Assembly: GCA_017634275.1 (NCBI GenBank)
Contig: JAGBNQ010000073.1
Coordinates: 1-42,481, forward strand
DNA: 42,481 bases
Direction of reading: 5' to 3'
From: Ruminococcus sp.
GTDB taxonomy: Bacteria; Bacillota; Clostridia; Oscillospirales; Ruminococcaceae
Part shown: positions 2,177 through 41,198 of the stretch, one piece after another
Position numbering within the stretch: position 1 is the first letter of the stretch
Layout: each line of letters opens with the position of its first letter
The notes under the pieces: model-generated
Told to the model about the DNA's origin: nothing
Seen by the model: the letters and a program-made list of their open reading frames with translations, nothing else
Databases searched by the model: none
Position numbers and translations under genes: made by a program

Positions 2177-2205
2177 TTGACAAAATTCTATCAAAGTGCT
2201 ATAAT
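2177..2205 (+). promoter_or_regulatory. Sigma-A promoter of the cobalamin uptake operon
   Basis: Perfect consensus boxes TTGACA (2177-2182) and TATAAT (2200-2205) with a 17-bp spacer. Transcription would start near 2212, just ahead of the riboswitch, leaving a leader of about 300 nt. Confidence 0.85.
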
Positions 2206-2221
2206 ATAACCATAATATGTA

Positions 2222-2335
2222 TTGCGCCCCGAAGAATTGACGTGAGCTTACGTCAAAGCAGGAGAGAAGTGCAGTGAAAATCTGCCGCAGCAGCCACTAC
2301 CGTTATAGTCGGATCGCTCGTCGGGGTTTGCAGGT
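2222..2335 (+). promoter_or_regulatory. Cobalamin (AdoCbl-type) riboswitch aptamer
   Basis: Core elements appear in the expected order. A closing helix pairs CCCCGA (2227-2232) with TCGGGG (2321-2326). A hairpin GACGT-loop-ACGTC follows, then a GGAGAGAA stretch and the short stem GCAG-TGAAAAT-CTGC (2271-2285), which corresponds to the family's GGTGAAAATCC element. Next come GCAGCCACTACCGT, resembling the conserved GCC-ACTGT core, and AGTCGGAT, resembling the AGTCAGGA end. The boxes deviate from consensus, so this may be a variant or short cobalamin class. Downstream genes encode B12-carrier-like proteins and an ECF importer, which supports the ligand call. A covariance-model scan was not possible here. 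Confidence 0.75.
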
Positions 2336-2441
2336 TTTGGGGTAATTCCCGCCGCTTTTGGGCAATGAAAGGCGTGACCGTAAATATCGGCTTTTGGTGT
2401 TTCTTTTTAAAAAGGAAACGGCAAGGGTCTTTTATCGGTGC

Positions 2442-2482
2442 GCTCTTTTAAAGGCTGTGGCTTTTAAAAGAGCTTTGTTTTT
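2442..2482 (+). terminator. Riboswitch-controlled intrinsic terminator
   Basis: An 11-bp perfect stem pairs GCTCTTTTAAA (2442-2452) with TTTAAAAGAGC (2463-2473) and is followed by TTTGTTTTT. It lies between the aptamer and the first gene, the normal position for an expression platform that turns the operon off when ligand is bound. A preceding helix around 2397-2419 (GTTTC/GGAAAC) could take part in an alternative fold. Confidence 0.8.
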
Positions 2483-2514
2483 GCGGTGAGATACCTTAGG
2501 AAAGGATGGTAAAA

Positions 2515-3525
2515 ATGAAGAAAATGAAGAAGATCTCGGCTGTTACGGCGGCATTTATGCTCAGTATCAGCACGATGGCAATGACTGCAATGGCAGAGGA
2601 GAACGCTGATGCCGAGGCCGTAAATGATACGGCAGCAGCACAGGTGAGCGAGGCAGAGCCTATCACTGTAGTTGTAAATGTTTCCGTTGAGGGCGAGGCA
2701 AAAATGTTCAACAGCTCTGTTTACGTTACTGATATTGATAAGGACGGCACTATCACTATTGATGAGGCACTTTATGCTGCACACGATGCAGGGTATAATG
2801 AGGGCGTTGAAAACGGCTATGCTACTGCCGAAACTCAGTGGGGCTTGTCGCTCACAAAGCTGTGGGGCGTTGAAAACGGCGGTAGCTATGGGTATTATGT
2901 AAATAACAAGGCTGCTATGTCGTTGTCGGATCCGCTTGCTGAGGGTGATTATCTTGACGCTTTTGCCTATAAGGATACAACAGGCTATTCTGACGCATAC
3001 ACCTTCTTTGACAAGAGAAGTGTAGAGCTTGACCTTTCTGAGACGAGTACATTTGAGCTTAACCTCAGCTATGTGGGCTATGATGCTGACTGGAACACCG
3101 TTACCCTCCCTCTGAAGGACGCGGTTATAACTATAGACGGTGAGAGGACAGACTTTGTTACCGATGAAAACGGTAATGTAACGATAACAGTCGATCAGGA
3201 TGGCGTGTTCCGTGTAAGCGCTGTTTCGGATTCCATGATACTTGTTCCGCCTGCCTGCGACCTTGCGGTCGAAGGGGCAGAAGAAAAGCTCCCCGAGGGT
3301 GAAACTGAGAAAGAGCCCGAGGAGACCGAGAAAGAGCCTGAGGAGACCGAGGAAGAGCCCGAGGAGACAGAGGAGACCCCCTCTAAGGAGGAAAAGCCCG
3401 CAGCACAAACACCTAAGGCAACTGCAACTACAAACCCTAAGACATCAAGCTGCGGCACGCTCGCTTTCGGCATTGCATCGTTAGGTTTAGCAGGAATGCT
3501 CGTTTCAAAGCGCAGGAATAAATAA
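2515..3525 (+). CDS. Secreted DUF4430 (transcobalamin beta-domain-like) protein with sortase-type anchor
   Basis: Predicted cell-surface protein of 336 residues. A signal peptide (1-28, ending AMA) is followed by a DUF4430-type domain (about 40-150) with the family pattern YYVNNKA then EGDYLDAFAY. DUF4430 is the bacterial relative of the C-terminal B12-binding beta domain of transcobalamin and intrinsic factor. A second beta-rich segment (about 155-245) and an acidic Glu/Pro spacer with TEKEPEE repeats follow. The C-terminus is NPKTS (307-311), a hydrophobic stretch, then SKRRNK, which looks like a class B cell-wall sorting signal. ATG 2515 is preferred over ATG 2506 because AGGAAAGG (2498-2505) is correctly spaced only for the former. 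The stop overlaps the next start (TAATG), implying translational coupling. Corrinoid binding is inferred from the domain, riboswitch and neighbours; no binding residue can be assigned. Confidence 0.85.
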   Translation: MKKMKKISAVTAAFMLSISTMAMTAMAEENADAEAVNDTAAAQVSEAEPITVVVNVSVEGEAKMFNSSVYVTDIDKDGTITIDEALYAAHDAGYNEGVENGYATAETQWGLSLTKLWGVENGGSYGYYVNNKAAMSLSDPLAEGDYLDAFAYKDTTGYSDAYTFFDKRSVELDLSETSTFELNLSYVGYDADWNTVTLPLKDAVITIDGERTDFVTDENGNVTITVDQDGVFRVSAVSDSMILVPPACDLAVEGAEEKLPEGETEKEPEETEKEPEETEEEPEETEETPSKEEKPAAQTPKATATTNPKTSSCGTLAFGIASLGLAGMLVSKRRNK

Positions 3526-5498
3526 TGAAAAATAAAAAAGCTGCATTTATTGCCGCTTTGCTTATGATGATAAGCTGTTTTGCTTTCCCCGTCGAAGCTT
3601 TGGGGAAGGACGCTGATACCGCCGCGCAGTTGCAAGGCGGTATTTGTGTTTATAAAGCAGGCGGCGATATTCAGGGGTGGATAAACGGCGAGCTGACGCA
3701 AAAGGCAGGCTCTATGAGCGAGTGGTATATCATGGCGCTCGCGCAGTCGGGGAAATATGATTTTTCCGCGTATGAAGGGGCTTTGCTGGGGTATTTAGAG
3801 AAAAACAAGGTCGCCTCCGCGACATCGCGGCAAAAATATGCACTTGCACTTATAAGCATCGGCAGTAATGATGAATATATCTTAAAAACGCTTTCCGATT
3901 CGGTCGGGGGGCAGGGGCTTATGAGCCTTATCTTCGGGCTGCATATTGTTAATAACGGCTATACTGTAAGCGGCATTACCGCAAAGGGGATAATCGCTGA
4001 TATCCTTGCACTTCAAAAGCAGGACGGCGGCTTTGCGATAATAGGGGATAAAGGCGACCCCGACTGCACGGCTATGACTATCAGTGCCTTAGCGCCTTAT
4101 TATAAGAGCGACAGCAAGGTAAAAAACGCTTTGGGCAGGGCGACCGAATTTTTATCATCTATCCAGCAATCAAGCGGTGCATTTAAAAGCTTTGGGCAGG
4201 AGAACTGCGAAAGCACGGCGCAGGTGATGCTCGCGCTTTGCTCTTTGGGCATTGACCCCGAAAAGGACAGCCGCTTTATCAAAAACGGCAATAGCCTTTT
4301 TGATGCGCTTAAGGGCTTTGCGCTTGATAACGGCGGCTTTGAACACGCAAAGGGCGAGGGGGTCAACGAAAGTGCAACTATGCAGGCGCTTTACACGCTT
4401 GTGGGCTATGAGCGCTTGCTTGAGGGGAAAGGTCCATTTTTCATATTTGACAACAAAAGCCCCGAGACTGCAAAAAGGCCTTCAGAGGACAAGCCTGCCG
4501 CAACACAAAAGGTGACGGTGACAAAGCAAAGTGAAACTGCACCAAAGCAGACCCAAAGCAAAGCGACGGCTAAATCAACTAAAAGCACTGCACCCCAAAA
4601 CGGCGGCACAAAGGCGCAGACCACCCAAAAAAGCGTAACTGCCGCAGGCGAGATCATAACAAAAAGCGAGACTGCAAAAGCGCCTACCACTTCGGGCAAA
4701 AGCACTTCGGGCACGGCTGACATAAGCACATCTGCAAGCAAGGCAGGCTCGGAAACAAAGAGCGAAAAGCAGACCGATGATACCGCCGCCGCGATAACAA
4801 CTACCCTTCAAAGCGAGCAGGGCGGCGAAAGCACGCAGGGCGCTGAAACTATAGCATCAAGCGAGAGCGTCACCGCCTTGCAGACTACCCTGACCGAAAA
4901 GAAAACCGAGCAAAGCAGTGAAAAAAGGAGCATAAAGCTTTATATCTATATTGCTGTCGGTGCGGCTGCTCTGGCAGGGTGCGCGGTTTTGATAGTAAAG
5001 GGCAAGAGGAATATCAAGAGCTATATTTTTGTTATAGCTGTTGCAGGGGCGCTTTGTGCTGTCACGGCATTTATTGATATTGAAACAAAGGAGCAGCACT
5101 ATTCCGAGGACAGCAGTATAGCAAAGAGCGAAAGCGCAGGCAAGGTAACGGTGAGCATTGACTGCCTGACTATCTTAGGCGAGAGCGAGGATCTGCCTGA
5201 TGACGGATATATCTTAGCGCAGACAACCGCCGACATAGCCGAGGGCGAAACGGCATTTGACCTTTTAAACCGCCTTGCAAAGCAAAACGGCATTATCCTT
5301 GACATCAAGGGGAGCGATGAGATGATATATGTCGCAGGTATATCGGGGATATATGAATTTGACTTTGGTGAGCTTTCGGGGTGGATGTATTATGTAAACG
5401 GCAAAGCGCCGTCAGTCAACAGCTCGCAGTATATCCTAAAGGACGGCGACAAGGTAGAGTGGCGCTACACTAAGGAAATAGGGCACGATATAGAATAA
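3525..5498 (+). CDS. Membrane-tethered transcobalamin/intrinsic-factor-like protein (alpha-barrel plus DUF4430)
   Basis: Predicted surface corrinoid-binding protein of 657 residues. Domain order: signal peptide (1-26); alpha/alpha-barrel repeats of the terpenoid-cyclase/prenyltransferase fold (about 40-305), with the recurring pattern of an acidic residue then TAM/TAQ/SAT and a short helix, as in animal B12 carriers; a Ser/Thr/Lys-rich linker (about 310-465); two membrane helices (about 470-490 and 499-517) with a basic KGKRNIK loop between them; and a C-terminal DUF4430 domain (about 540-655, with GWMYYVNGKAP and KDGDKVEWRY). With the signal peptide the topology places both domains outside. 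No DxDD motif of squalene or terpene cyclases is present, so an enzyme role is unlikely. It overlaps the preceding gene by 1 bp and precedes ecfT by 43 bp. The domain architecture is seen; the ligand is inferred. Confidence 0.85.
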   Translation: MKNKKAAFIAALLMMISCFAFPVEALGKDADTAAQLQGGICVYKAGGDIQGWINGELTQKAGSMSEWYIMALAQSGKYDFSAYEGALLGYLEKNKVASATSRQKYALALISIGSNDEYILKTLSDSVGGQGLMSLIFGLHIVNNGYTVSGITAKGIIADILALQKQDGGFAIIGDKGDPDCTAMTISALAPYYKSDSKVKNALGRATEFLSSIQQSSGAFKSFGQENCESTAQVMLALCSLGIDPEKDSRFIKNGNSLFDALKGFALDNGGFEHAKGEGVNESATMQALYTLVGYERLLEGKGPFFIFDNKSPETAKRPSEDKPAATQKVTVTKQSETAPKQTQSKATAKSTKSTAPQNGGTKAQTTQKSVTAAGEIITKSETAKAPTTSGKSTSGTADISTSASKAGSETKSEKQTDDTAAAITTTLQSEQGGESTQGAETIASSESVTALQTTLTEKKTEQSSEKRSIKLYIYIAVGAAALAGCAVLIVKGKRNIKSYIFVIAVAGALCAVTAFIDIETKEQHYSEDSSIAKSESAGKVTVSIDCLTILGESEDLPDDGYILAQTTADIAEGETAFDLLNRLAKQNGIILDIKGSDEMIYVAGISGIYEFDFGELSGWMYYVNGKAPSVNSSQYILKDGDKVEWRYTKEIGHDIE

Positions 5499-5541
5499 AG
5501 GCAATGCCCGTGCGGCGGCGCATGAAGAAAGAGGTGAACAT

Positions 5542-6420
5542 ATGAAAACGCTTGAAAGCTCAAACCCGATAGTTTTGTTTTTCTTCTTTTTGTATGTTAC
5601 AGCCCTTTCTATGTTTATCTCGTTTCCGTTTCTGATAATTATCTCGCTTTTCGGGGCAATGGCTTATTATTACAGCTCGCCTGCCCCTAAAAAGGGGAGC
5701 TTTACTGTGTTTGTGTGGGTGCTGTTTTTAGTGCTGTCCGCAGCAAATCCGCTTATTTCACACAAGGGCGAAACTATCCTGCTTTTTATAAATAACCGCC
5801 CCATTACCCTTGAAAGCTTTTATTTCGGGCTTAACAGCTCTGCAATGATAGTTTCGGCACTTTACTGGTTCAGAACTTTAACTGTAGTGCTGACAAGTGA
5901 TAAGCTTATCTACCTTACATCATTTTTATCAAAAAATCTCTCGCTGATAATTTCAATGTCGGTAAGGTTTGTGCCGATGTTTGGCAGGCAGAGAAAGAAA
6001 ATAAAGGAAACTCAGCTTGCAATGGGGCTTTATAATGATGACAGTATAGTTGACGATATCCGCTCAAATATAAGGGTATTCTCTATCCTTATAACATGGG
6101 CGCTCGAAAACGGGATAACGGCGGCAGACAGCATGGAGGCGCGCGGCTTTTCGCTCGGAAAAAGGAGCTGTATGCGCCAAAAGCGGATAGATATATTTGA
6201 TATCATGCTTATAATTCTTATGAGCGCGCTTTTTGGCATAACGCTTGCAGGCAGGCTTTTTGGGGGAATGAGCCACAGCTTTTACCCGAGGCTTAGCATT
6301 TCCTTTAACGGCATCAAGGACACAGCAGCGCTTTTAAGCTTTGCGCTGCTTGCCTTTTTGCCCGTGATCTTAAAAGCGGAGGTGAGCCTTAGATGGCACT
6401 TGTTAAAACAGAGGGTCTGA
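5542..6420 (+). CDS. ecfT: ECF transporter transmembrane component EcfT
   Basis: Integral membrane coupling subunit of an energy-coupling-factor importer; it links the ATPase to the substrate-binding S component. The 292 residues include hydrophobic segments near 10-45, 55-70, 100-120, 215-235 and 260-285. The second coupling motif is present as SMEARGF (A200-R201-G202). At the first motif position the family normally has Ala-Arg-Gly, but this protein has QLAMGLY (A160-M161-G162), so the arginine is replaced. The start at 5542 follows a strong GAGGTGA. The 3' end overlaps the ATPase gene by 28 bp. The operon position after B12-carrier-like proteins suggests a dedicated rather than shared module. 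Confidence 0.9.
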   Translation: MKTLESSNPIVLFFFFLYVTALSMFISFPFLIIISLFGAMAYYYSSPAPKKGSFTVFVWVLFLVLSAANPLISHKGETILLFINNRPITLESFYFGLNSSAMIVSALYWFRTLTVVLTSDKLIYLTSFLSKNLSLIISMSVRFVPMFGRQRKKIKETQLAMGLYNDDSIVDDIRSNIRVFSILITWALENGITAADSMEARGFSLGKRSCMRQKRIDIFDIMLIILMSALFGITLAGRLFGGMSHSFYPRLSISFNGIKDTAALLSFALLAFLPVILKAEVSLRWHLLKQRV

Positions 6421-8024
6421 CATTTACCTACCCCGAATGTGAAAGCCCTGCGATAGCAGATATAGAGCTGACGATAGAGCGCGGCAGCTTTAACGTGCTT
6501 GCAGGCTCGACGGGGTGCGGAAAATCCACGCTGCTGCGGCTTTTAAAGCGCGAGCTTGCACCGCTTGGGGATATGCGCGGCGAGATATTCTTTGACGGTG
6601 TCAGGCTTTGCGAGCTTTCTGACAAGGACTCTGTCAGCAGGATAGGCTTTGTAATGCAAAGTGTCGATGCGCAGATAGTGTGCGACAAGGTGTGGCACGA
6701 GCTTGTGTTTGTGCTTGAAAGCCTTGGGAAGGACAAGGGCTTTATCGCTTTTCGCGCGGCGGAAACAGCAAGCTATTTCGGCATTGACAGCTGGTATGAG
6801 AGGGATACCGCCTCACTTTCGGGCGGCCAAAAGCAGCTTTTGAACCTTGCATCGGTCATGATGTGCGAGCCGCAGCTGCTTATCCTTGATGAGCCGACAG
6901 CGCAGCTTGACCCGATAGCCGCATCGGAGTTTATCCACACGGTAAAAAAGCTCTGTGACGAGCTGGGGCTGACTGTCCTTATAGCCGAGCATAGGCTTGA
7001 TGAGCTTATCCCCCTTTGCGACAAGCTGTTTATTATGGAAAAGGGCAGGCTTATCCACAGCGGCGCGCCTGCCGAGGTCATATCAAGGCTTGATGACAAA
7101 AGCCCCATAGCAAAGGCGATGCCTGCCGCCGCAAGGCTTTACAAGGCACTCGGCGCGGTGGGGGAGCTGCCCCTTACCGTATCAAAGGGGCGGCAGCTTG
7201 CAGCAAGGTATGATAACAAAATTAGTACGCTGCAAAGAAAGAGGTATACCCATTCGGGAGAAAAGGCGCTGGAGCTTAAGGACGTATATTTTCGCTTTGA
7301 GAGAAACTCGCCCGACATTTTAAAGGGGCTGACGCTTGACGTTTACAAGGGCGAGATATTCTGCGTGCTTGGTGCTAACGGCAGCGGAAAATCGACTGCG
7401 GCAAAATGCATATCAGCACTATTAAAGCCCTACAGCGGCAGTATAAAGGTATTTGGCAAAAGGCTTAAGGAATACAAAAACCGCACGCTTTACACAAACT
7501 GTCTTACTCTTGTGCCGCAGGACGTACAGACCTGTTTTTTATACACTACTGTAAGGGAGGAGCTTGATGAGGCAGGCATTTCCCCCGATGAGCTGCCGTT
7601 TGATATGAGCGAGGTGCTTAATAAGCACCCCTATGACCTCTCGGGCGGCGAGCAGCAGCTTTTAGCGCTTGCAAAGGCACTTGGCAGCAAGCCGAGGCTG
7701 CTTATTTTAGACGAGGCCACAAAGGGAATGGACGCGCAGCTCAAACTAAAGACCGCCGAGATACTCAAAGAGCTAAAGAGCAATGGAGTTACCCTTTTGG
7801 TAGTCACTCACGATATCGAATTTGCCGCCCTTTGCGCTGACAGATGCGCTATGTTTTTCGGGGGCGAGGCGGTGAGCGTTCTGCCGCCGTACGAGTTTTT
7901 TGACAAGGGCAGCTTTTACACCACCGCCGCAAGCCGCATTGCAAGGGGGCAGTATGAGGGCGTTGTTACGGTAGATGACCTTGCCGCCCTCTGCCTAAAG
8001 AATGAAAAGAAGGTGGCGCGCTGA
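6393..8024 (+). CDS. ecfA: ECF transporter ATPase, two ABC domains fused (EcfA-EcfA')
   Basis: Cytoplasmic ATPase driving ECF import. Its 543 residues hold two complete nucleotide-binding domains in one chain, where many ECF systems use two separate proteins. Domain 1 (about 1-225) has Walker A GSTGCGKST (38-46), signature LSGGQKQ, Walker B LLILDEP and switch histidine IAEHR. Domain 2 (about 285-510) has GANGSGKST (327-335), LSGGEQQ, LLILDEA and VVTHD. Domain 2 ends its Walker B with DEA rather than DEP, as several EcfA proteins do. A GGAGGTGA RBS (6378-6385) lies inside ecfT and supports the ATG at 6393. The stop overlaps the next start (TGATG). Confidence 0.95.
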   Translation: MALVKTEGLTFTYPECESPAIADIELTIERGSFNVLAGSTGCGKSTLLRLLKRELAPLGDMRGEIFFDGVRLCELSDKDSVSRIGFVMQSVDAQIVCDKVWHELVFVLESLGKDKGFIAFRAAETASYFGIDSWYERDTASLSGGQKQLLNLASVMMCEPQLLILDEPTAQLDPIAASEFIHTVKKLCDELGLTVLIAEHRLDELIPLCDKLFIMEKGRLIHSGAPAEVISRLDDKSPIAKAMPAAARLYKALGAVGELPLTVSKGRQLAARYDNKISTLQRKRYTHSGEKALELKDVYFRFERNSPDILKGLTLDVYKGEIFCVLGANGSGKSTAAKCISALLKPYSGSIKVFGKRLKEYKNRTLYTNCLTLVPQDVQTCFLYTTVREELDEAGISPDELPFDMSEVLNKHPYDLSGGEQQLLALAKALGSKPRLLILDEATKGMDAQLKLKTAEILKELKSNGVTLLVVTHDIEFAALCADRCAMFFGGEAVSVLPPYEFFDKGSFYTTAASRIARGQYEGVVTVDDLAALCLKNEKKVAR

Positions 8025-8710
8025 TGCTGATGATAAAAAACGACAGGCTCTCGGCGGCAGTGCGCTACAGCGTGCCTTTTGTGCTTGTGCCGTGTCTTGC
8101 CGTGCTGGGGGCTTTGGTACTTGATGAGAGCAGGCATCTGCTTGTGTCGCTCATAGCGGCGGCGCTTGCGCTTTTGCTCTTTGCAGCAGGCTTTGACAAG
8201 AAAAAGATAGGCACGCGCCGAATGGTCATCTGTGCTGTCATGACAGCGCTTGCATTCGCAGGGCGGTTTATCCCCTTTTTAAACCCCATAACCGCTATGG
8301 CTATCATCACGGGCATTTATATGGGCAGCGAGGCAGGCTTTCTGGTAGGCTCGCTTTCGGCGCTGCTTTCTAACTTTTATTTCGGGCAGGGGCCGTGGAC
8401 GGTCTTTCAGATGCTTGCATGGGGGCTGATAGGCTTTTTTGCAGGCGCATTATCAAAGCCGCTTAAGAGCAATACGGTTTTCCTACTTATCTACGGCGCG
8501 CTTTGCGGTGTGCTTTATTCTTTTATTATGGATATATGGACGGTGCTTTGGTATAACAGAGGCTTTTCGTGGGGGCTTTACGCAGGGGCTATAGTTTCTG
8601 CAATTCCCTACACGGCATCATATGTATTTTCAAATGTGCTGTTTCTGTTCTTTCTTTTCAAGCCCTTTGGTGTTAAGCTTGAAAGAATTAAAACTAAATA
8701 CGGTATATAA
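8024..8710 (+). CDS. ECF transporter S component, predicted corrinoid specificity
   Basis: Small polytopic membrane protein of 228 residues with about six hydrophobic segments, the size and shape of an ECF substrate-capture subunit. A glycine-rich segment (GSEAGFLVGSLSALLSNF) is followed by FGQGPWTVFQM, a motif I associate with a group of clostridial S components. It ends the ECF operon and overlaps the ATPase stop by 1 bp, with AAGGTGG as RBS. Specificity cannot be read from the sequence alone. Corrinoid or a B12 precursor is inferred from the riboswitch and the two carrier-like proteins upstream. It is not clearly a match to any named S protein (CbrT, CblT, RibU) by eye, so no symbol is given. 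Confidence 0.8.
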   Translation: MLMIKNDRLSAAVRYSVPFVLVPCLAVLGALVLDESRHLLVSLIAAALALLLFAAGFDKKKIGTRRMVICAVMTALAFAGRFIPFLNPITAMAIITGIYMGSEAGFLVGSLSALLSNFYFGQGPWTVFQMLAWGLIGFFAGALSKPLKSNTVFLLIYGALCGVLYSFIMDIWTVLWYNRGFSWGLYAGAIVSAIPYTASYVFSNVLFLFFLFKPFGVKLERIKTKYGI

Positions 8711-13827: not shown

Positions 13828-15948
13828 ATGAGCTACAAAAAGATAATGGCTTACGCGCTGGCTCTGTCTGTAGCTGTGATGAGCTTTGCAGGCTGTTCAA
13901 AGACGGACAGCTCATCAGGCGGTGAGGAGAGCAGCTCAAAGGTTCAGATAAGCTCAAAGGAAACAGATATAGACGATACTATCTCGCAGCTTGACCTTGA
14001 TTTTACGGCTAATGACCTTGATGTGGGGTATGACGAATCATCGGCTACAAGGATAATCTATGAGGCGGATACTCCGACGGTATCAGGCGAGGGCGCTGAG
14101 ATAAGTGAGAGAAACGTAACGATAACCTCGGCAGGCTGCTATATTATCAGCGGCACGATAAGTGACGGGCAGATAAAGGTAGAGGCAGGCAAGGAGGATA
14201 AGATACAGCTTGTTTTAGATAATGCGTATATCACCTGCAAGACGGGCGCGCCTATCTATATAAAGAGCGCCGAAAAGGTCTTTATCACCCTTGCTGACGG
14301 CTCGACAAACGGCCTTACCGATACGGCTGATGAATATGCGGCAGACGGCGATATAAGCCCCGATGCGGTCATCTTCTCAAAGGAAGACCTTACCGTTAAC
14401 GGCAGCGGCAAGCTGATAATTGATGCAAGCTATAAGCACGGCATAGTTTCTAAGGACGACCTTGTTATAGCAGGCGGCGAGTTTGAGATAACAAGTGCTA
14501 AAACAGCTATCGAGGGTAAGGATTCTGTAAAGATAGCAGACGGCACATTCAAGATAAATGCAGGCACAAACGGTATAGTTTCCTCAAATGATGAGGACGA
14601 GAGCAAGGGCTATGTGTATATCGAGGGCGGCAGCTTTGATATCACTGCCGCTACTGACGGCATTCAGGCAGAGAGTATACTTACCGTTACTGACGGCGAG
14701 TTTAATATGGTAACGGGCGGCGGCTCGGCAAACGCTCAGCAAAAGCAGGGCAATGACTTCGGCGGCAAGGGCATGGGCGGCGACCGCGGCGGCTTTAATA
14801 AGGAGCAGATGCAGCAGGGCAATGCAGATATGCCGCAGATGCAGGAAGGGCAGACGCCCCCCGAAATGCCAAGCAGCGAGATGCCGCAGGACGGGCAGCG
14901 CCCCGATATGCAGGGCGGCGGCTTTGGCGGCAGAGGGCAGCAGATGCGCGGCTTTGATGACGCAGCTGTACCTACGGAAAACACAGCCACCGAGCTTTCG
15001 GCTATGACCCAAACGACAGCAAACGACAATTCCGCACAGGGCTTTACAGATGCCGACAACACGGGCTCTGAAAGCATGAAAGGCTTAAAGGCAGGAAAGG
15101 GCATAGCTATCTCGGGCGGAACATTTAGCATAGATTCGGCAGACGATACTATCCATTCAAACGCGAATGTCGTGATAAGCGGCGGCAAGCTCACCCTTAC
15201 AGCAGGCGATGACGGAATACACGCTGATGAGATAATCGAGGTCTCGGCAGGAAATGTCGAGCTTACAAAGTCCTACGAGGGCGTTGAGGCTAAGTATATT
15301 AATATAAGCGGCGGCGATATCACGGTAAACGCATCTGATGACGGCTTTAACGCATCGGACGGCTCGGGAGAAAACTTCGGCGGCATGGGCGGCAAAGGCG
15401 GAATGCAGCAAAACGCTGACACATCTGACAGCCCCTACCTTAAAATATCGGGCGGCAAGGTATATGTAAACGCCAACGGTGACGGCCTTGATTCAAACGG
15501 CTCTATGCTCATAGAGGGCGGCGATATAACGGTTGACGGCCCGACAAACGGCGGCAACGGCGCGCTTGACAAGGGCGACGGGAACTACTCGCTCAAGGTC
15601 ACGGGCGGAACGCTTGCAGCCTTTGGCGCAACAGGCATGGAGGAGGGCTTTACCGAGGATTCCACGCAGGCAGGATTTCTGCACAACTTCTCATCAACAG
15701 TTGCAGCCGGTACAGAGGTAACGGTCAAGGACAGCTCGGGCGAAGTGATAGCCACCTACACCCCTGCAAAATCATGGCAGAGCCTTGTATTCACAAGCAG
15801 CGCTCTTAAGCAGGGCGAAACATACACGATAACTGCGGGCGAGCAGTCGGAGACTGTAACGCTTGACAGCATAAACACCTCAAATTCAACGTCGAACGGC
15901 GGCTTTGGCGGCGGCATGGGCGGCGGCAGAATGCGAGGAAACAACTAA
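13828..15948 (+). CDS. Cthe_2159-type carbohydrate-binding beta-helix lipoprotein
   Basis: Predicted surface lipoprotein of 706 residues. The lipobox SFAGC places the lipidated cysteine at C23, followed by a Ser-rich spacer. The rest is a repetitive right-handed beta-helix with many ISGGxxxIxA and DDGIHA-like rungs, as in the Cthe_2159/DUF4353 family, a structural relative of polysaccharide lyases reported to bind acidic sugars. A Gly/Gln/Met/Pro-rich insert (about residues 298-376) interrupts the helix, and a second Gly/Met patch lies near 515-530. The tail is Gly-rich (GGFGGGMGGGRMRGNN). RBS AAAGGGAG. It ends the VTC operon and is followed by a clear terminator. Ligand and role with the polyphosphate-type genes are unknown. 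Confidence 0.88.
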   Translation: MSYKKIMAYALALSVAVMSFAGCSKTDSSSGGEESSSKVQISSKETDIDDTISQLDLDFTANDLDVGYDESSATRIIYEADTPTVSGEGAEISERNVTITSAGCYIISGTISDGQIKVEAGKEDKIQLVLDNAYITCKTGAPIYIKSAEKVFITLADGSTNGLTDTADEYAADGDISPDAVIFSKEDLTVNGSGKLIIDASYKHGIVSKDDLVIAGGEFEITSAKTAIEGKDSVKIADGTFKINAGTNGIVSSNDEDESKGYVYIEGGSFDITAATDGIQAESILTVTDGEFNMVTGGGSANAQQKQGNDFGGKGMGGDRGGFNKEQMQQGNADMPQMQEGQTPPEMPSSEMPQDGQRPDMQGGGFGGRGQQMRGFDDAAVPTENTATELSAMTQTTANDNSAQGFTDADNTGSESMKGLKAGKGIAISGGTFSIDSADDTIHSNANVVISGGKLTLTAGDDGIHADEIIEVSAGNVELTKSYEGVEAKYINISGGDITVNASDDGFNASDGSGENFGGMGGKGGMQQNADTSDSPYLKISGGKVYVNANGDGLDSNGSMLIEGGDITVDGPTNGGNGALDKGDGNYSLKVTGGTLAAFGATGMEEGFTEDSTQAGFLHNFSSTVAAGTEVTVKDSSGEVIATYTPAKSWQSLVFTSSALKQGETYTITAGEQSETVTLDSINTSNSTSNGGFGGGMGGGRMRGNN

Positions 15949-20527: not shown

Positions 20528-21067
20528 GTGTGCGAATTTGCTGACCCTTACAAAGTGGTAACAAAAACCCTTGACATAGTTACACAACGTGTAGTAAAAT
20601 ATATGAAAGACAAGGGGCTGACTCTGTCTGCGGCGGAGAGCTGTACGGGCGGCCTTGTGTCAGCGAGCGTCACTTCGGTGTCGGGGGCGTCGGCCGTGTA
20701 TAAGGGCGGCGTTTGCTCCTACAGCGAGGAGATAAAGATGAGCGTGCTCGGCGTGAGTGAGCAAACGCTTGAAAAATACAGCGTGTACTCCGAGCAGACG
20801 GCGTCTGAAATGAGTGAGGGCGTTATGCGCCTTATGAAAACGGATGCCGCGATAGGCATCACGGGCATCGCAGGGCCTGACGGCGGAACTGAGCAAAAGC
20901 CCGTCGGCACGGTGTATGTCAGCGTAAGGTACAAAGACCGCGAGCAGGTCAAAGACCTCGCACTTTATAAAGAATATGAAAAATTAGACAGAAATACAGT
21001 CCGTTATCTTGCGGCAACAAGGTCGCTTGAAATGCTGCTTGATTTGATGATGAAGGATGAGGGCTAA
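20528..21067 (+). CDS. pncC: Nicotinamide-nucleotide amidohydrolase PncC (CinA C-terminal domain)
   Basis: Deamidates NMN to nicotinate mononucleotide in pyridine nucleotide salvage. 179 residues; only the amidase domain is present, while many Firmicutes encode it fused after a COG1058 domain in CinA. Motifs: AAESCTGGLVSA near the N-terminus and GITGIAGPDGG in the middle. The start is GTG at 20528 after GAAAGGGG; no ATG lies upstream of the AESCTGG motif at a better site. It is followed by the sortase gene with a 4-bp gap, and the sortase RBS lies in its 3' end. Confidence 0.9.
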   Translation: MCEFADPYKVVTKTLDIVTQRVVKYMKDKGLTLSAAESCTGGLVSASVTSVSGASAVYKGGVCSYSEEIKMSVLGVSEQTLEKYSVYSEQTASEMSEGVMRLMKTDAAIGITGIAGPDGGTEQKPVGTVYVSVRYKDREQVKDLALYKEYEKLDRNTVRYLAATRSLEMLLDLMMKDEG

Positions 21068-21071
21068 GAAA

Positions 21072-22178
21072 ATGTCTATGGCAGAAGAAATAAACACAAC
21101 ACACGTTAAGGATAATACAAACTTCTTCGTAAGGGCTGCAAGGTACTTTATCCCGTGGAAGGGCGACGGCTTTTCTGAAATATTCAGAAAGCTGATGTTT
21201 ATCGCCTCTATCGCGGTGTTTGCCGTGTCGCTCGATTCGCTTGCCGATTATCTGAGGGCTGATGAGCAGGAGCTTAGCTATTTTGAAGAGATACGCTCGC
21301 TTGAGCCTGATTTCGGCGATGACAGCTCCTCAAAGGGCAGCGGCGATGAGATAGATACCACAGCTAACGAGGGTAAGATAACAAAGATAGAAAACCCCGT
21401 CATAACGGTTGAGCCGAGAGAACTGCAGGAATGGGCGCTGCCGCTGCTTGAAAGAAATGACGATGTGATAGGGTGGCTGAAGATACCTGCAATTAAGGAT
21501 TCTAACGGCGAAGTTATCATAAACTACCCCGTTTTGCAGCACGAATCGAGTAATGATTATTATCTGCACCACAATATCGACGGCGCACAGACTGAGTCGG
21601 GAAGTATTTTTGCTGACTGCGTGGTGCCCGTAACGCTTGAAGGGCAGGCTGACAATATAACGCTTTACGGCCATAATATGATGGCAGGAACGCAGTTTGC
21701 AGGCTTGCAGAAATTCAAGAAGGGCGCAGATTTTATAAGGAAAAATCCTCTGATAGATTTCAATACGATATATGAAAAAAATCAGAAGTATGTTATAATC
21801 GCCACATTCATCGGGATAGATGCCGAGGATCAGGACGGCGGCGAGGGCAAGGCCTTCGATTATTGGAACTACCGCGATTTCGCGGCTGAGGGGCATTACA
21901 GCTTTGATACCTGGAAAACGAATATTTTAAAGTATTCGTGGATAGAAAGCTCGGTCGATTTCAATGAGGATGACGATTTTCTTACACTTTCCACCTGCAC
22001 CTATGAGCTTGGCTCATACAGAACGGTAAGGTGGGTAGTGGTAGCAAAGAAATTAACAGCAAAGGACAGCCTTGATGAGATAGTCGAGTCCTATAAGGAC
22101 AAGGCGGATAAGGATATCTACTTCTTCAGGGCGTGGAGAGATACCTACGGCAACAGAAAAGTTATCGTGGGTTCGTAA
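21072..22178 (+). CDS. srtB: Class B sortase
   Basis: Membrane-bound transpeptidase that joins sorting-signal proteins to the cell wall. 368 residues: a cytoplasmic start, one membrane helix (about 40-60), an acidic/Ser linker, then the sortase domain. Catalytic His is in LYGHNMMAG (H201), Cys in TLSTC (C309), and Arg in SYRTVRW (R317 or R320). TLSTC and the spacing fit class B. The in-frame ATG at 21057 lacks an RBS, while GAGGG (21059-21063) serves ATG 21072. It adjoins pncC. One likely substrate in this window is the DUF4430 protein at 2515-3525, which ends in NPKTS, a class-B-like signal. Confidence 0.9.
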   Translation: MSMAEEINTTHVKDNTNFFVRAARYFIPWKGDGFSEIFRKLMFIASIAVFAVSLDSLADYLRADEQELSYFEEIRSLEPDFGDDSSSKGSGDEIDTTANEGKITKIENPVITVEPRELQEWALPLLERNDDVIGWLKIPAIKDSNGEVIINYPVLQHESSNDYYLHHNIDGAQTESGSIFADCVVPVTLEGQADNITLYGHNMMAGTQFAGLQKFKKGADFIRKNPLIDFNTIYEKNQKYVIIATFIGIDAEDQDGGEGKAFDYWNYRDFAAEGHYSFDTWKTNILKYSWIESSVDFNEDDDFLTLSTCTYELGSYRTVRWVVVAKKLTAKDSLDEIVESYKDKADKDIYFFRAWRDTYGNRKVIVGS

Positions 22179-32729: not shown

Positions 32730-33746
32730 ATGGGCGGAAATGCCACAGTCGCAAAAATAAGAACTGTATTCGGCCGTGCTCTTACTGCGGCCGATTATCA
32801 CGAGATGACCAATAGGCAGAATATCACGGAGCTTTGTGATTACCTCAAAACGCACAAGCGCTATGAGGAGGCTCTGAGAGATGTTGAGCCTGCAACTGTC
32901 CACAGAGGCTATCTTGAACAGCTTATCAAAAAGGAAAACTTTCTTACCTACAGGCGGCTTGTAAAATTCCAGCAGCTTGACAGGGGGGAGTTTTATAAAT
33001 TCTATATCAAAAAGGCGGAAACGGTGCAGCTTATAAGCTTTCTGCATATGTATGAGGCAGGGCTGAATGAGGAATACCTCGCATCTGTCCCCGGGTATAT
33101 GACTGAGTATTCAAAGCTGGGGCTTTTTGAGCTTGCGGCCTGCCACAGCTTTGAGCAGATACTTAAGACACTCAGAAAGACGGAGTATTACAAGCCGCTC
33201 AAAAAAATAATGCCGAAGGACGGCGGCGAGCCCGAGCTTGCAAAGGCCGAGAGGGCTCTGAGAGTGCATTATTATAAGCACGTTTTGGAAAGCGCTAAGG
33301 CGGAGCTTTCCGAGGAAGAGTATAAGGAGATAGCAAAGCTTGTTGGAACAGATGCCGACCTTATAAACTACACAAACGCCTACCGAATGAAAAAGTATTT
33401 TTCACTTGATAAGGAGCAGATAGAAAAGCGTTCGCTGCCCTTTTCAAGGATAGGAAAAGCAAAGATGAGCGAGCTTTACGCCTGCGATGAAACGGAGGAT
33501 ATGGAGCATCTTATGGACAGGACGGTCTACAGAAACGATGACCCCGACCAGACGATAGAATCGCGAAACGCAAAAGCGCGGCTAAAGGCGGTAAGGCACG
33601 TTATCGAGCTTACCTCATCATCAGCGGCGGCGCTGTTTGCATATATGATGATATGCGATATCGAGGCGGCAAATATAACCCATATAATCGAGGGCATCAG
33701 ATATAAAGCCGACCTTTCCGAGATCGAATCACAGCTGGCGGTATAA
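32730..33746 (+). CDS. ntpC: V-type ATPase subunit C
   Basis: 338 residues, helical, with the pattern of V/A-ATPase subunit C, which links the central rotor (D/F) to the membrane c-ring. Recognisable parts are ARALTAADYHEMTNRQNITE near the start, KAETVQLISFLHMYEAGLN, and YKEIAKLVGTDADLINYTNAYRMKKYF in the second half. RBS AAGGCGGTG. In known operons (Enterococcus, Thermus) C follows E; here it stands near the front, before subunit I. A repeat element lies between it and ntpI. Confidence 0.85.
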   Translation: MGGNATVAKIRTVFGRALTAADYHEMTNRQNITELCDYLKTHKRYEEALRDVEPATVHRGYLEQLIKKENFLTYRRLVKFQQLDRGEFYKFYIKKAETVQLISFLHMYEAGLNEEYLASVPGYMTEYSKLGLFELAACHSFEQILKTLRKTEYYKPLKKIMPKDGGEPELAKAERALRVHYYKHVLESAKAELSEEEYKEIAKLVGTDADLINYTNAYRMKKYFSLDKEQIEKRSLPFSRIGKAKMSELYACDETEDMEHLMDRTVYRNDDPDQTIESRNAKARLKAVRHVIELTSSSAAALFAYMMICDIEAANITHIIEGIRYKADLSEIESQLAV

Positions 33747-33853
33747 TAATTAATAATTAATAATTATGGTGTCGGCTGCACCGAGTATATAAATGTAAAA
33801 CCTCGCCGTAAGGCGAAACAATACCTGTTAACTGTTATCTGTTATCTGTTAAC
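33744..33853. repeat. Heptad/palindrome repeat, copy 4, between ntpC and ntpI
   Basis: Left units: TAATAAT three times (33744-33764). Core: the partial palindrome GGTGTCGGCTGCACCGA (33768-33784) and the hairpin TCGCC-GTAA-GGCGA (33803-33816), ending AATACC. Right units: TGTTAAC, TGTTATC, TGTTATC, TGTTAAC (33826-33853). The ntpI RBS follows within 10 bp, so the element sits in the operon mRNA directly ahead of a start site. Confidence 0.8.
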
Positions 33854-33870
33854 TGAAAAGGGGTGTTTAT

Positions 33871-35820
33871 TTGGCTACCGAGAAAATGGAGCTTGTAAAT
33901 ATAAACGGCAAACTTGACAGACTTGACGAGGCAATTGAGGCTCTGCTCAAAAGCGGGAGCTTTCATATGGAGGAGGGCTTTTCCCACTCGTCGGGCTCGG
34001 GCTATAAGCCGCTTAATGAGAAAAATCCTTACGCCTTGCTGTTAAAGAAATACCTTACTCTTTGTACGGGGCTTGACTGCGAGAGCGAGGGGGGCGACAA
34101 GGATAAATGCAAAGCCTCCACCTACGAGGAATTTGATGAGCTGTATCAGAATATTTACAGCCACTACAGCGAGCTTGAAAGCAAAAAAGCATCGCTTGAT
34201 AAGGACATAGCCCTGAGAAATGAGGCGAGCCTGCAAACGGCGCACCTTAAGGGCATGAATGAAGACCTTACAAGGCTTTTTAATCTTGAATATATAAGCA
34301 TTCGCTTTGGTAAGCTGCCGAGCGATAACGCAAAAAAGCTTGAATACTTTGACAGGAATTTCTTCTTCTTCCCGTTTGATGAGGATATGACGTATACCTA
34401 CGGAATGTACGTCTGCCCGAAGGGTGAGAAGGAGGAGATAGATGAGATATTCAAAACGCTTTACTTTGAGCGCACAAGGATACCCGATTTTGTATCGGGA
34501 AGTGCATCAGCGGCATACTCCACCCTGCAAAGCGAGATAGAGCAGGGGAAAAAAGACCTTAAGCTTACCGAGGAGCAGATAAGCGAGCTTTCCGAAAAGT
34601 ATAAGGACGAGCTTAAAAATGCCTGCGAAAAGCTAAGATACCTAAAGGGCGCGTTTACGCTGAGGCGAAAAGCAGGCGTGCTTAAGGATAAATTCCTGAT
34701 AAAGGGCTTTATTCCCTCAAAGGATAGGGCGGAGCTTGAATCGGCTTTCAAAGGCCATGATGAGCTTGAGCTTACCTTCCTTCCCCCGGACAGCGACCCC
34801 GGCTGTAAGCCCCCGACGATACTTAAAAACGGCATTTTAACACGGCCGTTCAAAATGCTTGTCGGAATGTACGGCTTGCCGACCTACGGCGGCTTTGACC
34901 CGACTGCGTTTGTGGCACTTACCTATTCGCTTTTGTTCGGTATAATGTTCGGTGACCTCGGGCAGGGCTTTCTGATAGCGCTTTTGTCGATCCCCGTGGC
35001 AAGAAAGCTCAGCCGCGATATGGGCGGCATGATGCTCAGGTGCGGAATATGCTCGATGATATTCGGAACTCTTTACGGCTCGGTATTCGGCATTGAGGAT
35101 CTGCTTGACCCCGTGTATGAGAATATAGGGATCGATTTCCTGCCGCTCAGGGCGTTTGAGAGTACGAACTTTATCCTCTTTACGGCTGTAGGCATTGGAA
35201 TATTCCTGATAGTCGTTTCGATGCTTATAAATATTTTCACATCGTTTAAGCGACGGGATATAGAAAGTGCCGTGTTCGGCTGCAACGGTATCTGCGGACT
35301 CGTCTTCTACGGCTCGATAGTTTTCGCAGTCGTTGCAACTATGATGCTTGATATGAAGGTGATGAGCGCACCGTTTGTTATCTTCCTTATAGTGATACCT
35401 GCGCTTTGCATTTTCTGCCGCGTGCCCTTTGCGATACTTGTAAAGTATAAAAAGTGGAAATTCTCGGATACGGACGAGAAGATGACGCTCGGCGGCTTTA
35501 TAGTTGAGAATTTCTTTGAGATGTTTGAGTTTGTGCTTTCCTATATCTCAAATACAATGTCCTTCCTTCGTGTCGGCGGCTTTGTAATGAGCCACGCAGG
35601 TATGATGCTCGTGGTAATGACGCTTATGGAGGGCATGAGCAAGGTAGGTCAGCCTATAGTTTTCGTAATAGGCAACCTTTTCGTTATGGCTATGGAGGGC
35701 ATGATAGTTGCCATTCAGATAATCAGGCTCGAATTTTACGAGATATTCTCCCGTTTCTATTTAAGCGGCGGCAAGGAATATGTTCCCGTGACAGCCGAGC
35801 TTGCAAAAGAAGAAAATTAG
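33871..35820 (+). CDS. ntpI: V-type ATPase subunit I (a-subunit)
   Basis: Membrane stator subunit that provides the ion half-channels. 649 residues: a cytoplasmic N-terminal half with coiled-coil segments (about 1-320) and a C-terminal half with about seven or eight membrane helices, including FGIMFGDLGQGFLIAL, SYISNTMSFLRVGGFVMSHA (with the essential arginine region) and a long final helix. The start is TTG at 33871, five bases after AAAAGGGGTG; the next ATG (33886) is 20 bases from the RBS. Ends 18 bp before ntpK. Confidence 0.92.
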   Translation: MATEKMELVNINGKLDRLDEAIEALLKSGSFHMEEGFSHSSGSGYKPLNEKNPYALLLKKYLTLCTGLDCESEGGDKDKCKASTYEEFDELYQNIYSHYSELESKKASLDKDIALRNEASLQTAHLKGMNEDLTRLFNLEYISIRFGKLPSDNAKKLEYFDRNFFFFPFDEDMTYTYGMYVCPKGEKEEIDEIFKTLYFERTRIPDFVSGSASAAYSTLQSEIEQGKKDLKLTEEQISELSEKYKDELKNACEKLRYLKGAFTLRRKAGVLKDKFLIKGFIPSKDRAELESAFKGHDELELTFLPPDSDPGCKPPTILKNGILTRPFKMLVGMYGLPTYGGFDPTAFVALTYSLLFGIMFGDLGQGFLIALLSIPVARKLSRDMGGMMLRCGICSMIFGTLYGSVFGIEDLLDPVYENIGIDFLPLRAFESTNFILFTAVGIGIFLIVVSMLINIFTSFKRRDIESAVFGCNGICGLVFYGSIVFAVVATMMLDMKVMSAPFVIFLIVIPALCIFCRVPFAILVKYKKWKFSDTDEKMTLGGFIVENFFEMFEFVLSYISNTMSFLRVGGFVMSHAGMMLVVMTLMEGMSKVGQPIVFVIGNLFVMAMEGMIVAIQIIRLEFYEIFSRFYLSGGKEYVPVTAELAKEEN

Positions 35821-35838
35821 TTTTTGGAGGAATTTGTT

Positions 35839-36288
35839 ATGTTGATATTCATTTTACCGCTTATCGTAGTTGTGCTGCTTATGGTGCCGTTTCTCATTTA
35901 TGCTAAGAGGATAAAAAACGGCGGCAGCCCTAAAAAGGCATTTATCGGAAACCTTTGTACATTCTTCGGCACAATGGGTCTTGCACTCCTTTTCCCGATA
36001 GGCAAGATAGTTTTCGCAGCTGAGGAAACGGGCAGCGTTTCTACAGTTCTTTCTACCGGCGCAGGTATGGGCTACCTTGGTGCGGCTTTAGCAGTTGGAC
36101 TTGCCTGCGTTGGCTCGGGTATCGCGGTTTCGGCAGGTGCGTCTGCGGCTATAGGTGCTACGAGCGAGAACCCCGATGCCTTCGTTAAGTCGCTTATCTT
36201 CGTTGTTCTCGGTGAAGGTATCGCTCTTTACGGCCTTCTTATCGCTATCCTTATCATCTCCAATGTCGGCTCTGCAATAGGTCTTTGA
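35839..36288 (+). CDS. ntpK: V-type ATPase subunit K (c-ring)
   Basis: 149 residues, proteolipid of the rotor ring. Membrane segments at about 2-21, 37-56, 73-100 and 115-145. The last two form a canonical c-type hairpin, with GAGMGYLGAALAVGLACVGSG, the loop ATSENPDAF and VVLGEGIALYGLLIAI, which carries the ion-binding glutamate. The first two segments are a diverged hairpin without an obvious acidic residue, so the protein probably offers one ion site per four helices, as in NtpK of Enterococcus. The first-hairpin sequence differs from NtpK, and Na+ versus H+ use cannot be decided. ATG 35839 has GGAGG eight bases upstream; the in-frame TTG at 35824 overlaps that RBS. Confidence 0.88.
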   Translation: MLIFILPLIVVVLLMVPFLIYAKRIKNGGSPKKAFIGNLCTFFGTMGLALLFPIGKIVFAAEETGSVSTVLSTGAGMGYLGAALAVGLACVGSGIAVSAGASAAIGATSENPDAFVKSLIFVVLGEGIALYGLLIAILIISNVGSAIGL

Positions 36289-36289
36289 T

Positions 36290-36592
36290 ATGAAGATGTA
36301 TCTTATAAGCGATAATATGGATACGCAGATGGGGTTTCGCCTTGCAGGTGTTGACGGTGTAGTTGTTCACGGCGAGGAGGAAACGGGTGCCGCACTTGAT
36401 GCGGCTATGGAGCGCGATGATGTAGGCATTATCCTTATGACCCCCAAGGCTATACAAAAGTGTGAGGAGCTTGTGAGAAAGTATAAGCTTGAACGCGCTA
36501 CGCCGCTTATTATCGAGATACCCGACAGACATGGAAACAGTAACGTTACCGAATCTATCAGCAGATATCTTAAAGAGGCGGTGGGCGTCTGA
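36290..36592 (+). CDS. ntpF: V-type ATPase subunit F
   Basis: Central-stalk subunit of 100 residues. The Rossmann-like pattern YLISDNMDTQMGFRLAGVDG and a middle strand GIILMTPKA, then TPLIIEIPDRHG, are typical of the F (Enterococcus NtpG) family. Starts one base after the ntpK stop, with only a weak RBS (AATAGG), so translation is likely coupled. The symbol follows the general subunit name F, not the Enterococcus letter. Confidence 0.85.
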   Translation: MKMYLISDNMDTQMGFRLAGVDGVVVHGEEETGAALDAAMERDDVGIILMTPKAIQKCEELVRKYKLERATPLIIEIPDRHGNSNVTESISRYLKEAVGV

Positions 36593-36641
36593 TAAGGCGC
36601 GCGGTTATTGATAAGTGCGTTACGATTTAAGGAGTTTTACT

Positions 36642-37229
36642 ATGGATGAAAATAAAAGACTTGAGGCCTTCCGCGCGGCTGTGCTTGAAAACAGCAGGCA
36701 AAAGGCTCAGGCTATAACCGACTCAGCCCAAAGTGAGGCGGACGCTTATCTCAAAGCTCTGACCGATGAGGAAACCGTTTCCTTTGCAAGGCAGAAGGCG
36801 GAAATAGAAAACGAGGTGAGCCTGCGGCTCCAGCGTGAGAGCGCAGGGCAGGAGCTTAGCGTCAAAAGAGCGGTCCTCTCCTACAGAGAAGAGCTTATAG
36901 GCGAGGTCTTTGATAAGGCGCAGGCTATCCTTTTGAAAAAGGCGGCATCGCCCGAGCATGAGAATTATGTCTTCTCCTGCCTAAAAAGGATAAGCGCGCA
37001 GTATAAGGGCGAAAACGGCATCTGCCTTCTTTCCCCTGCGCATATGTCATACGCTGATAAGATAAAGAGCGATTTCGGCTATGAATGCAAAAGCGATGAT
37101 TCCCTTACCCTCGGCGGAGTAATGGTAAGGTTTGACAGGCTGGGCATTTTGATAGATAATTCCGTAAACTCCGCCCTTGATAAGCAAAGGGCAGATTTTG
37201 CCGGGAATAACAGCTCTATTAGCGTATAA
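36642..37229 (+). CDS. ntpE: V-type ATPase subunit E (peripheral stalk)
   Basis: 195 residues: a long N-terminal helix (about 1-100, with KAQAITDSAQSEADAYLKAL) and a C-terminal alpha/beta head with SLTLGGVMVRFDRLGILIDN, the family pattern of E. It pairs with the H/G coiled coil to fix the catalytic head. ATG 36642 is chosen because AAGGAG (36629-36634) is seven bases upstream. A repeat element separates it from ntpA. Confidence 0.88.
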   Translation: MDENKRLEAFRAAVLENSRQKAQAITDSAQSEADAYLKALTDEETVSFARQKAEIENEVSLRLQRESAGQELSVKRAVLSYREELIGEVFDKAQAILLKKAASPEHENYVFSCLKRISAQYKGENGICLLSPAHMSYADKIKSDFGYECKSDDSLTLGGVMVRFDRLGILIDNSVNSALDKQRADFAGNNSSISV

Positions 37230-37232
37230 GCC

Positions 37233-37298
37233 GCCCGAATGGGCATTTATCGGCGCTTAGCGCCGATACCTTAATTATTCATTATTCATTATTAATTA
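37233..37298. repeat. Heptad/palindrome repeat, copy 5, between ntpE and ntpA
   Basis: Hairpin GCCC-GAAT-GGGC (37233-37244) is the reverse complement of the one at 54-65. It is followed by the perfect palindrome TATCGGCGC-TTA-GCGCCGATA (37248-37268), then CC and four 7-bp units TTAATTA, TTCATTA, TTCATTA, TTAATTA (37271-37298). The ntpA start follows 18 bp later. Confidence 0.85.
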
Positions 37299-37316
37299 GA
37301 TATAACGGGGTGTAAT

Positions 37317-40474: not shown

Positions 40475-40498
40475 TAGGTAATTCGGAGTCTGTTTCAA

Positions 40499-40600
40499 TG
40501 CACAATGCACAATGCACAATGCACTATTGAGGTGCGCCGATGCGAAGGGGTTCGGGGGGCGTCCGCAAAGCCTCCCGAGCAAGCCGTTTTATAGCAAACC
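40499..40600. repeat. Heptad/G-rich repeat, copy 6, after ntpB
   Basis: TGCACAA three times and TGCACTA (40499-40526), then TTGAGGTG, then the G-rich module GCGAAGGGGTTCGGGGGG and GTCCGCAAAGCCTCCC, which matches the inverted-repeat arms at 16035-16089. From 40600 to 40728 only AT-rich DNA is seen, with no firm promoter. Confidence 0.75.
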
Positions 40601-40728
40601 CTATTTGCTTGCAAAAATGTGGTGCGTCAAGTATATAACAATAAAATATATTAATTATACTGATGTGGATTTTTGTGACGTTTATGGTGTGGGATATAGT
40701 TTTTCATTATTAAGAGGGAATATTGCTA

Positions 40729-41160: not shown

Positions 41161-41198
41161 GTATATATATTCAACCACTATGAAAGGAGATTTCCCGT

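Follow-up and report, generated by a model that had tools for sequence, protein, structure and literature searches.

Several described systems that handle vitamin B12 bear comparison with an operon at positions 2,177 to 8,710 of a contig from Ruminococcus sp. (JAGBNQ010000073.1, 42,481 nucleotides; this whole stretch is called the window below). The BtuG/BtuH loci of Bacteroides are outer-membrane, TonB-linked systems. They are described as capturing B12 at the cell surface before it reaches the transporter (PMC6143338, PMC8941943; here and throughout, citations refer to the accessible parts of each paper), and it is by this description of surface capture that the window operon can be likened to these Bacteroides loci. 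On the importer side, the energy-coupling factor (ECF) transporter ECF-CbrT of Lactobacillus delbrueckii (PDB 6FNP) unites a CbrT-type S component with EcfT and two ATPase domains, and CbrT shares this one module with other S components (PMC5997447). The animal carriers transcobalamin, intrinsic factor and haptocorrin consist of an alpha/alpha toroid, a flexible linker and a beta domain of the DUF4430 family. On its own, the beta domain of human transcobalamin (TC) binds both cobalamin and cobinamide, and co-elution of the two TC domains requires cobalamin (PMC5599065). Cobalamin can be bound by isolated domains, and in some organisms the beta domain is the only one present (PMC11107200). Finally, a table for Lacticaseibacillus rhamnosus contains, as an annotation only, an "Additional lipoprotein component of putative cobalamin ECF transporter", and a DUF4430 protein of this organism, LGG_02295, adjoins rtpR (PMC9963975); the two are probably the same protein.

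The window operon likewise encodes a CbrT-type S component, EcfT and two ATPase domains, but its S component has an EcfT and a fused ATPase of its own and about 60 extra N-terminal residues compared with CbrT, and two extracellular partner proteins, P1 and P2, are added. The L. rhamnosus component resembles these as an annotated partner of a cobalamin ECF transporter, but it is termed a lipoprotein, and the accessible text mentions neither a toroid nor an anchored P1. The evidence below gives good support to the view that the operon encodes a conserved importer of corrinoids, regulated by B12 and served by an extracellular partner that combines a toroid with DUF4430, and we consider a dedicated, B12-repressed corrinoid importer to be the probable explanation of the operon as a whole.

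The riboswitch leader and the CbrT-like importer

Five tightly packed open reading frames on the forward strand follow the leader and can be read as one transcription unit: P1 (2506-3525), P2 (3525-5498), EcfT (5542-6420), a fused EcfA-EcfA' ATPase (6393-8024) and the S component (8024-8710). The overlapping starts reported in the original prediction are present at P1/P2 (1 base), EcfT/EcfA (28 bases) and EcfA/S (1 base), and a gap of 43 bases separates P2 from EcfT. That prediction had described a riboswitch-controlled bacterial version of the transcobalamin design feeding an ECF importer, and each of its elements was located where it had been placed, the one exception being the assignment of the first protein to DUF4430.

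A sigma-70-type promoter (2177-2205; TTGACA and TATAAT, a 17-nucleotide spacer, 12 of 12 consensus bases) precedes an AdoCbl-II cobalamin riboswitch aptamer at 2249-2325. The absence of such an aptamer from a covariance scan, together with a lack of corrinoid affinity in binding tests, had been named in advance as a result that would refute the operon's proposed role; in an Rfam scan RF01689 was the sole match in the window, exceeding its gathering score by a narrow margin (37.8 versus 36.5 bits, E 1.5e-5). Covariation among 64 matches to the riboswitch model R1 (all those with E up to 1, including two on the minus strand) agrees with the aptamer structure, with 95.9% of cells able to pair, double-sided changes in 9 of 13 pairs and a covariation score of 0.391 versus 0.188 in shuffles, in an alignment that was fitted to the model and is thus biased towards the structure. 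Behind the aptamer is the intrinsic terminator of the original prediction, a hairpin of 14 pairs at 2442-2473 followed by a run of T, and the leader from 2326 to 2500 folds better than 200 of 200 shuffled sequences (z -4.75). The segment 2422-2434 can pair with 2465-2477, the 3' arm of the terminator (13 nucleotides, 85%), and is a plausible antiterminator 5' arm. From this layout, adenosylcobalamin is predicted to control the downstream genes.

The order EcfT, fused ATPase and S component proposed for the rest of the operon is borne out by family matches: EcfT matches PF02361 (E 2.3e-7) and has an EARG motif, the ATPase has two ABC ATPase halves and carries its Walker A, signature and Walker B motifs in duplicate, and the S component matches PF07155 and PF12822. 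The operon thus encodes an ECF transporter with its own module. In a single-sequence search of the PDB, the sole significant relative of the S component was 6FNP chain A (E 3.2e-8, residues 60-227), and with a profile of the S component and ten orthologues 6FNP reached E 5.2e-13, the next entry, 4HZU chain S, standing at 0.0013. 6FNP is the ECF-CbrT entry (PMC5997447), and that its chain A is CbrT follows from the chain length and the label "Membrane protein" rather than from a stated chain name. The homology of the S component to CbrT is significant and exceeds that to the other solved S components, and we consider corrinoid uptake by this system very likely.

Two other kinds of substrate can be set against corrinoids. 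An ECF system for haem exists (PMC7299338), and haem, another tetrapyrrole, or cobalt might be imagined as the cargo; we regard this as highly improbable, given the cobalamin aptamer upstream, the closeness of S to CbrT and the lack, in family searches of the window proteins, of any match of S to cobalt or nickel S-component families. The operon could instead import a fragment of B12 rather than whole corrinoids. Alpha-ribazole and dimethylbenzimidazole have been proposed as substrates of S components of the CblT type, and a B12-responsive leader would suit the salvage of such lower ligands too. Three observations favour whole corrinoids over this rather improbable alternative: CbrT leads the solved chains by a wide margin in similarity to S, the TC beta domain, which takes corrinoids as ligands, falls in the DUF4430 family, and CbiC, a gene family of corrin synthesis, is found in none of the seven genomes of the window's genus, three of which are at least 93% complete.

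The extracellular proteins P2 and P1

P2 (657 residues) starts with a signal peptide (hydrophobic residues 5-27), followed by an alpha/alpha toroid (about residues 29-310; 3609-4454), a low-complexity linker rich in Ser and Thr, a transmembrane hairpin (residues 469-521; 4929-5087) and a DUF4430, or transcobalamin-beta-like, domain (residues 574-650; 5244-5474). The hairpin, a feature absent from the original prediction, consists of two stretches (469-494 and 496-521) separated by a basic turn, and from hydropathy both the toroid and the DUF4430 domain should lie outside the cell.

The C-terminal domain matches PF14478 with 67.2 bits against a cut-off of 23.8 (E 1.8e-18). A single-sequence PDB search with this region gave nothing better than E 0.66. 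With a profile of 72 bacterial DUF4430 domains, three PDB entries came up at E up to 10; the last of them was 5NO0, the beta domain of transcobalamin-2, whose E of 1.1 is not significant alone but whose alignment covers most of the domain. The aligned piece of human TC beta itself passes PF14478 (28.3 bits versus 23.8, E 2.4e-6), which places the beta domain of the animal carriers and the C-terminus of P2 in the same sequence family and upholds the relationship claimed for them. Seven residues (Y602, G615, S618, G619, W620, N625 and Y648) do not vary among the 72 bacterial domains; of these, W620 is matched by a tryptophan and Y602 by a tyrosine in the alignment with human TC beta.

The N-terminal part was the "alpha-barrel" of the original prediction, and this half of its description of P2 stands at the superfamily level only: we assign the region by profile comparison to the alpha/alpha toroids, its match to PF00432 (E 2.3e-4, 21.1 bits) lying under the cut-off of 26.5. 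PF00432 is found in 10 of 10 toroids at E up to 1, and at E up to 10 PF13243 is found in 69 and PF00432 in 60 of 73. In a PDB profile search the nearest solved relatives were squalene-cyclase-type (SQHop_cyclase_C) proteins (E 1.7e-14). H274 is present in 99% of the 73 toroids and might, speculatively, be a candidate cobalt ligand.

P2 thus shares with the animal carriers a toroid, a flexible linker and a DUF4430 beta domain, but the carriers are soluble and unanchored whereas P2 is tethered, by hydropathy, through a transmembrane hairpin in its linker, and the carriers are taken up by an endocytic receptor whereas P2 would feed a transporter. The homologies of P2 suggest, as its best reading, a clamp like that of transcobalamin, and by analogy a corrinoid is predicted to be sandwiched between the two domains.

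P1 (339 residues) has a start that resembles a signal peptide by eye and ends in a sortase-type C-terminus, NPKTS (by eye, at 3433-3447) followed by a hydrophobic stretch and basic residues; a hydropathy scan flagged residues 315-334 only. An EF-hand-like DxDxDG loop occupies residues 76-87, and in 42 sequences D76 and D80 are invariant and D78 is at least 90% conserved. The P1 family otherwise gives weak Ig-like and regulatory-like matches. In PDB profile searches with the first, shallow alignments neither P1 nor P2 matched transcobalamin, and the top matches of P1 were acidic low-complexity stretches.

The designation of P1 as a DUF4430 surface protein could not be established, since the window P1 has no PF14478 match at the curated cut-off. 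A profile of P1 compared with the P2 DUF4430 set was not significant (hhalign probability 1.4). Eight proteins encoded at the P1 position of other loci were tested against PF14478: five that had been chosen because the P2 DUF4430 profile had matched them pass (L044, 5.2e-25; L128, 1.5e-13; L124, 9.2e-9; L126, 1.7e-8; L146, 2e-5), and those of L118, L120 and L121 fail. When the P1 alignment A3 was compared with four of the five passing proteins, hhalign gave a probability of 98.3 (E 1.6e-14) over 222 columns, a span that takes in the signal peptide and the following domain. To judge from these comparisons, P1 may belong to DUF4430 as a diverged member, or its place may be taken by DUF4430 proteins at some loci.

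Among 69 P1-position proteins, a loose sortase-type C-terminal pattern is present in 50 (at least three of them weak), dockerin-like repeats in two and neither in 17, most of these last having a C-terminal tail that is TPKTG-like or of a comparable anchor type. Type I dockerin repeats together with DUF4430 are found above the Pfam cut-off in P1-position proteins of L128 (7749-8720), L146 (6906-7850) and L044 (7672-9348), and such proteins might dock on a cellulosome-type scaffold. In the window, a sortase (PF04203, E 4.7e-10) is encoded at 21057-22178, 12 kb downstream of the operon, and could anchor P1.

Conservation of the operon and wider occurrence of DUF4430

When GTDB genomes were scanned with the P2 alignment, at least 580 encoding stretches came up, and the best 80 were kept as loci; these are mostly from Ruminococcus or relatives, of rumen and gut, and include R. 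flavefaciens strains and Pseudoruminococcus massiliensis. With component profiles built from relatives of the window, P1, P2, EcfT, EcfA and S are all found in 62 of the 80 loci; six lack a match to P1 only, four have P2 and S alone and eight have other subsets.

The riboswitch is conserved together with the operon. Of 73 loci with more than 400 nucleotides of upstream sequence, 60 have a cobalamin riboswitch upstream: 48 by model R1 at E 0.001 or better, including four contigs used to build R1 (L071, L072, L073 and L075); L130, whose aptamer (E 3.9e-16) lies inside an over-long reading-frame start; and 11 by Rfam above the gathering score (L098, L101, L102, L105, L106, L108, L109, L110, L119, L123 and L131).

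The layout varies at some loci. L144 and L145 each have a second cobalamin riboswitch, placed downstream of P2; in L144 (9572-9712) it stands before EcfT, and at L145 (6334-6475) the search for ECF genes gave none; in L112, L137 and L140 the genes are reordered, with the ECF genes ahead of P1 and P2; and in L036 (8067-9942) P2 is divided into two overlapping frames, toroid and DUF4430, by a natural split or a sequencing error. Separate, adjacent toroid and DUF4430 genes beside ECF genes occur in L037, L040, L041, L042 and Latilactobacillus curvatus. In the last of these the DUF4430 protein passes Pfam, the S component is 31% identical to that of the window, and the toroid is recognised solely by comparison with P2 (E 4e-14, for one comparison).

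DUF4430 was also surveyed in the window's genome and 60 relatives (61 genomes, G000-G060); six of the 80 loci lie on contigs of these relatives, so the two surveys overlap. In an even draw of the phylum, 61 genomes with the window's own included, the toroid is matched at E 1e-10 or better in 15. Among the relatives and the window's genome, DUF4430 occurs in 36 of 61 genomes at 46 places, one of them under the Pfam cut-off, and 25 of the 46 are preceded on the same strand, at a distance under 6.5 kb, by a cobalamin riboswitch (RF00174 or RF01689, E up to 0.001), where 0.07 would be expected under uniform placement. The gathering score is exceeded in 20 of these 25. The genome survey proposed with the original prediction thus found the co-occurrence far above chance. 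RF01689 matches stand beside a DUF4430 gene in 10 of 12 cases (five of the 12 above the gathering score), the exceptions being a match on another contig in G001 and G012, which is without DUF4430.

A second arrangement was found among 24 further DUF4430 loci (L047-L070), mostly frames of about 130-180 residues. In 15 of these (L050, L051, L052, L055-L059, L061, L062 and L064-L068), counted with a profile built from the 15 themselves, the small DUF4430 gene is directly followed by one for a membrane protein of about 165-190 residues. A profile of these proteins matches 6FNP (CbrT) at E 8.7e-23, and ten of them gave no relevant match in Pfam and NCBIfam. DUF4430 therefore accompanies CbrT-type S components in two arrangements, the operon and the two-gene cassette.

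CbiC was found in 4 of the 36 genomes with DUF4430 and in 14 of the 25 without (Fisher p 4e-4, kinship uncorrected), and among 46 genomes that are 90% complete in 4 of 26 and 13 of 20, respectively. This mutual avoidance fits scavenging. All seven genomes of the window's genus have a B12-binding domain in frames of about 820 residues that by their size are presumably methionine synthase. The window's own genome is 59% complete.

A possible corrinoid relay at the cell surface

We propose that at low intracellular cobalamin the leader would be read through and the five genes made. Wall-linked P1 would collect corrinoids at the surface, which is the least supported step and makes the part of P1 the weakest element of this reading. 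P2, tethered by its hairpin, would clasp a corrinoid between its toroid and its DUF4430 domain, in the manner of the transcobalamin domains, and so hold it next to the membrane; the CbrT-like S component would then take the corrinoid and dock on EcfT and EcfA-EcfA', where ATP hydrolysis would release it inside. In bacteria without corrin synthesis, the importer would supply methionine synthase. Capture and hand-off by P1 and P2 are put forward here as a proposal.

Several results weigh against this account. PF14478 is matched by 0 of 42 P1-family proteins at E 0.001, and the profile match of the bacterial DUF4430 domains to 5NO0 falls short of significance on its own. The animal carriers had been said to combine the same two domain types as P2, and this holds for the beta domain family but not for the toroid as the animal alpha domain: an assignment to PF01122 (Cobalamin_bind) was rejected, with no match over the cut-off in the 61 genomes and none at any P2 locus; against the 73 toroids PF01122 gives one match, at E 0.11; and neither transcobalamin nor intrinsic factor is among the 37 PDB matches of the toroid. 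No aptamer was found at the thresholds used in 13 of the 73 loci (L076, L082, L090, L092, L094, L096, L097, L100, L104, L118, L132, L138 and L142), of which L094 has a sub-threshold riboswitch match in its genome at a fitting place, and the five-gene Latilactobacillus version has no riboswitch above the gathering score. Lastly, four genomes with DUF4430 also carry CbiC, among them G024, G025 and G034, which have toroid genes, so the system is not confined to bacteria that do not make corrins.

Part of this evidence would suit a different role for P1 and P2, in which the ECF part imports a corrinoid and the two proteins, instead of binding it free, bind B12-carrying partners (proteins, polysaccharide or neighbouring cells) or are co-regulated scaffolds or adhesins. 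The toroid is nearest to terpene-cyclase-type proteins rather than PF01122, P1 has only its weak Ig-like and regulatory-like matches, and dockerins are sometimes present at its position. DUF4430, however, adjoins CbrT-like genes without a toroid or P1 in 15 of the 24 further loci, and its seven invariant residues are kept in every domain aligned; we consider such a role unlikely, if somewhat less so than the import of B12 fragments, and prefer corrinoid capture by P2 with hand-off to the S component.

A broader proposal is put forward more tentatively, as one we would sooner doubt than assert: DUF4430 might be a bacterial corrinoid-binding family, and a "bacterial transcobalamin" relay might operate in many Clostridia and in one or more strains of Lactobacillales, from a wall-linked or, in some relatives, dockerin-bearing collector through a membrane-tethered alpha/beta clamp to a CbrT-type ECF importer, a bacterial uptake design that the animal carriers would re-use by inheritance or convergence. 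If this were true, a domain of unknown function would gain a ligand, hundreds of clostridial extracellular proteins would be candidates for B12 scavenging, and ideas on where the animal carriers took their design from could be put to the test. The identification of B12 transport systems in numerous gut genomes has been called an open problem (PMC6593275). Among the matches listed from the open-licence PMC literature, we found no description of a form with toroid, DUF4430 and anchored P1, and the annotation in PMC9963975 was the only published connection between bacterial DUF4430 and B12.

Elsewhere in the window, positions 13828-15948 encode a protein with a Cthe_2159 carbohydrate-binding domain (E 9.8e-95), and a gene cluster at 32730-41837 resembles, by eye from its translations, a V-type ATPase.

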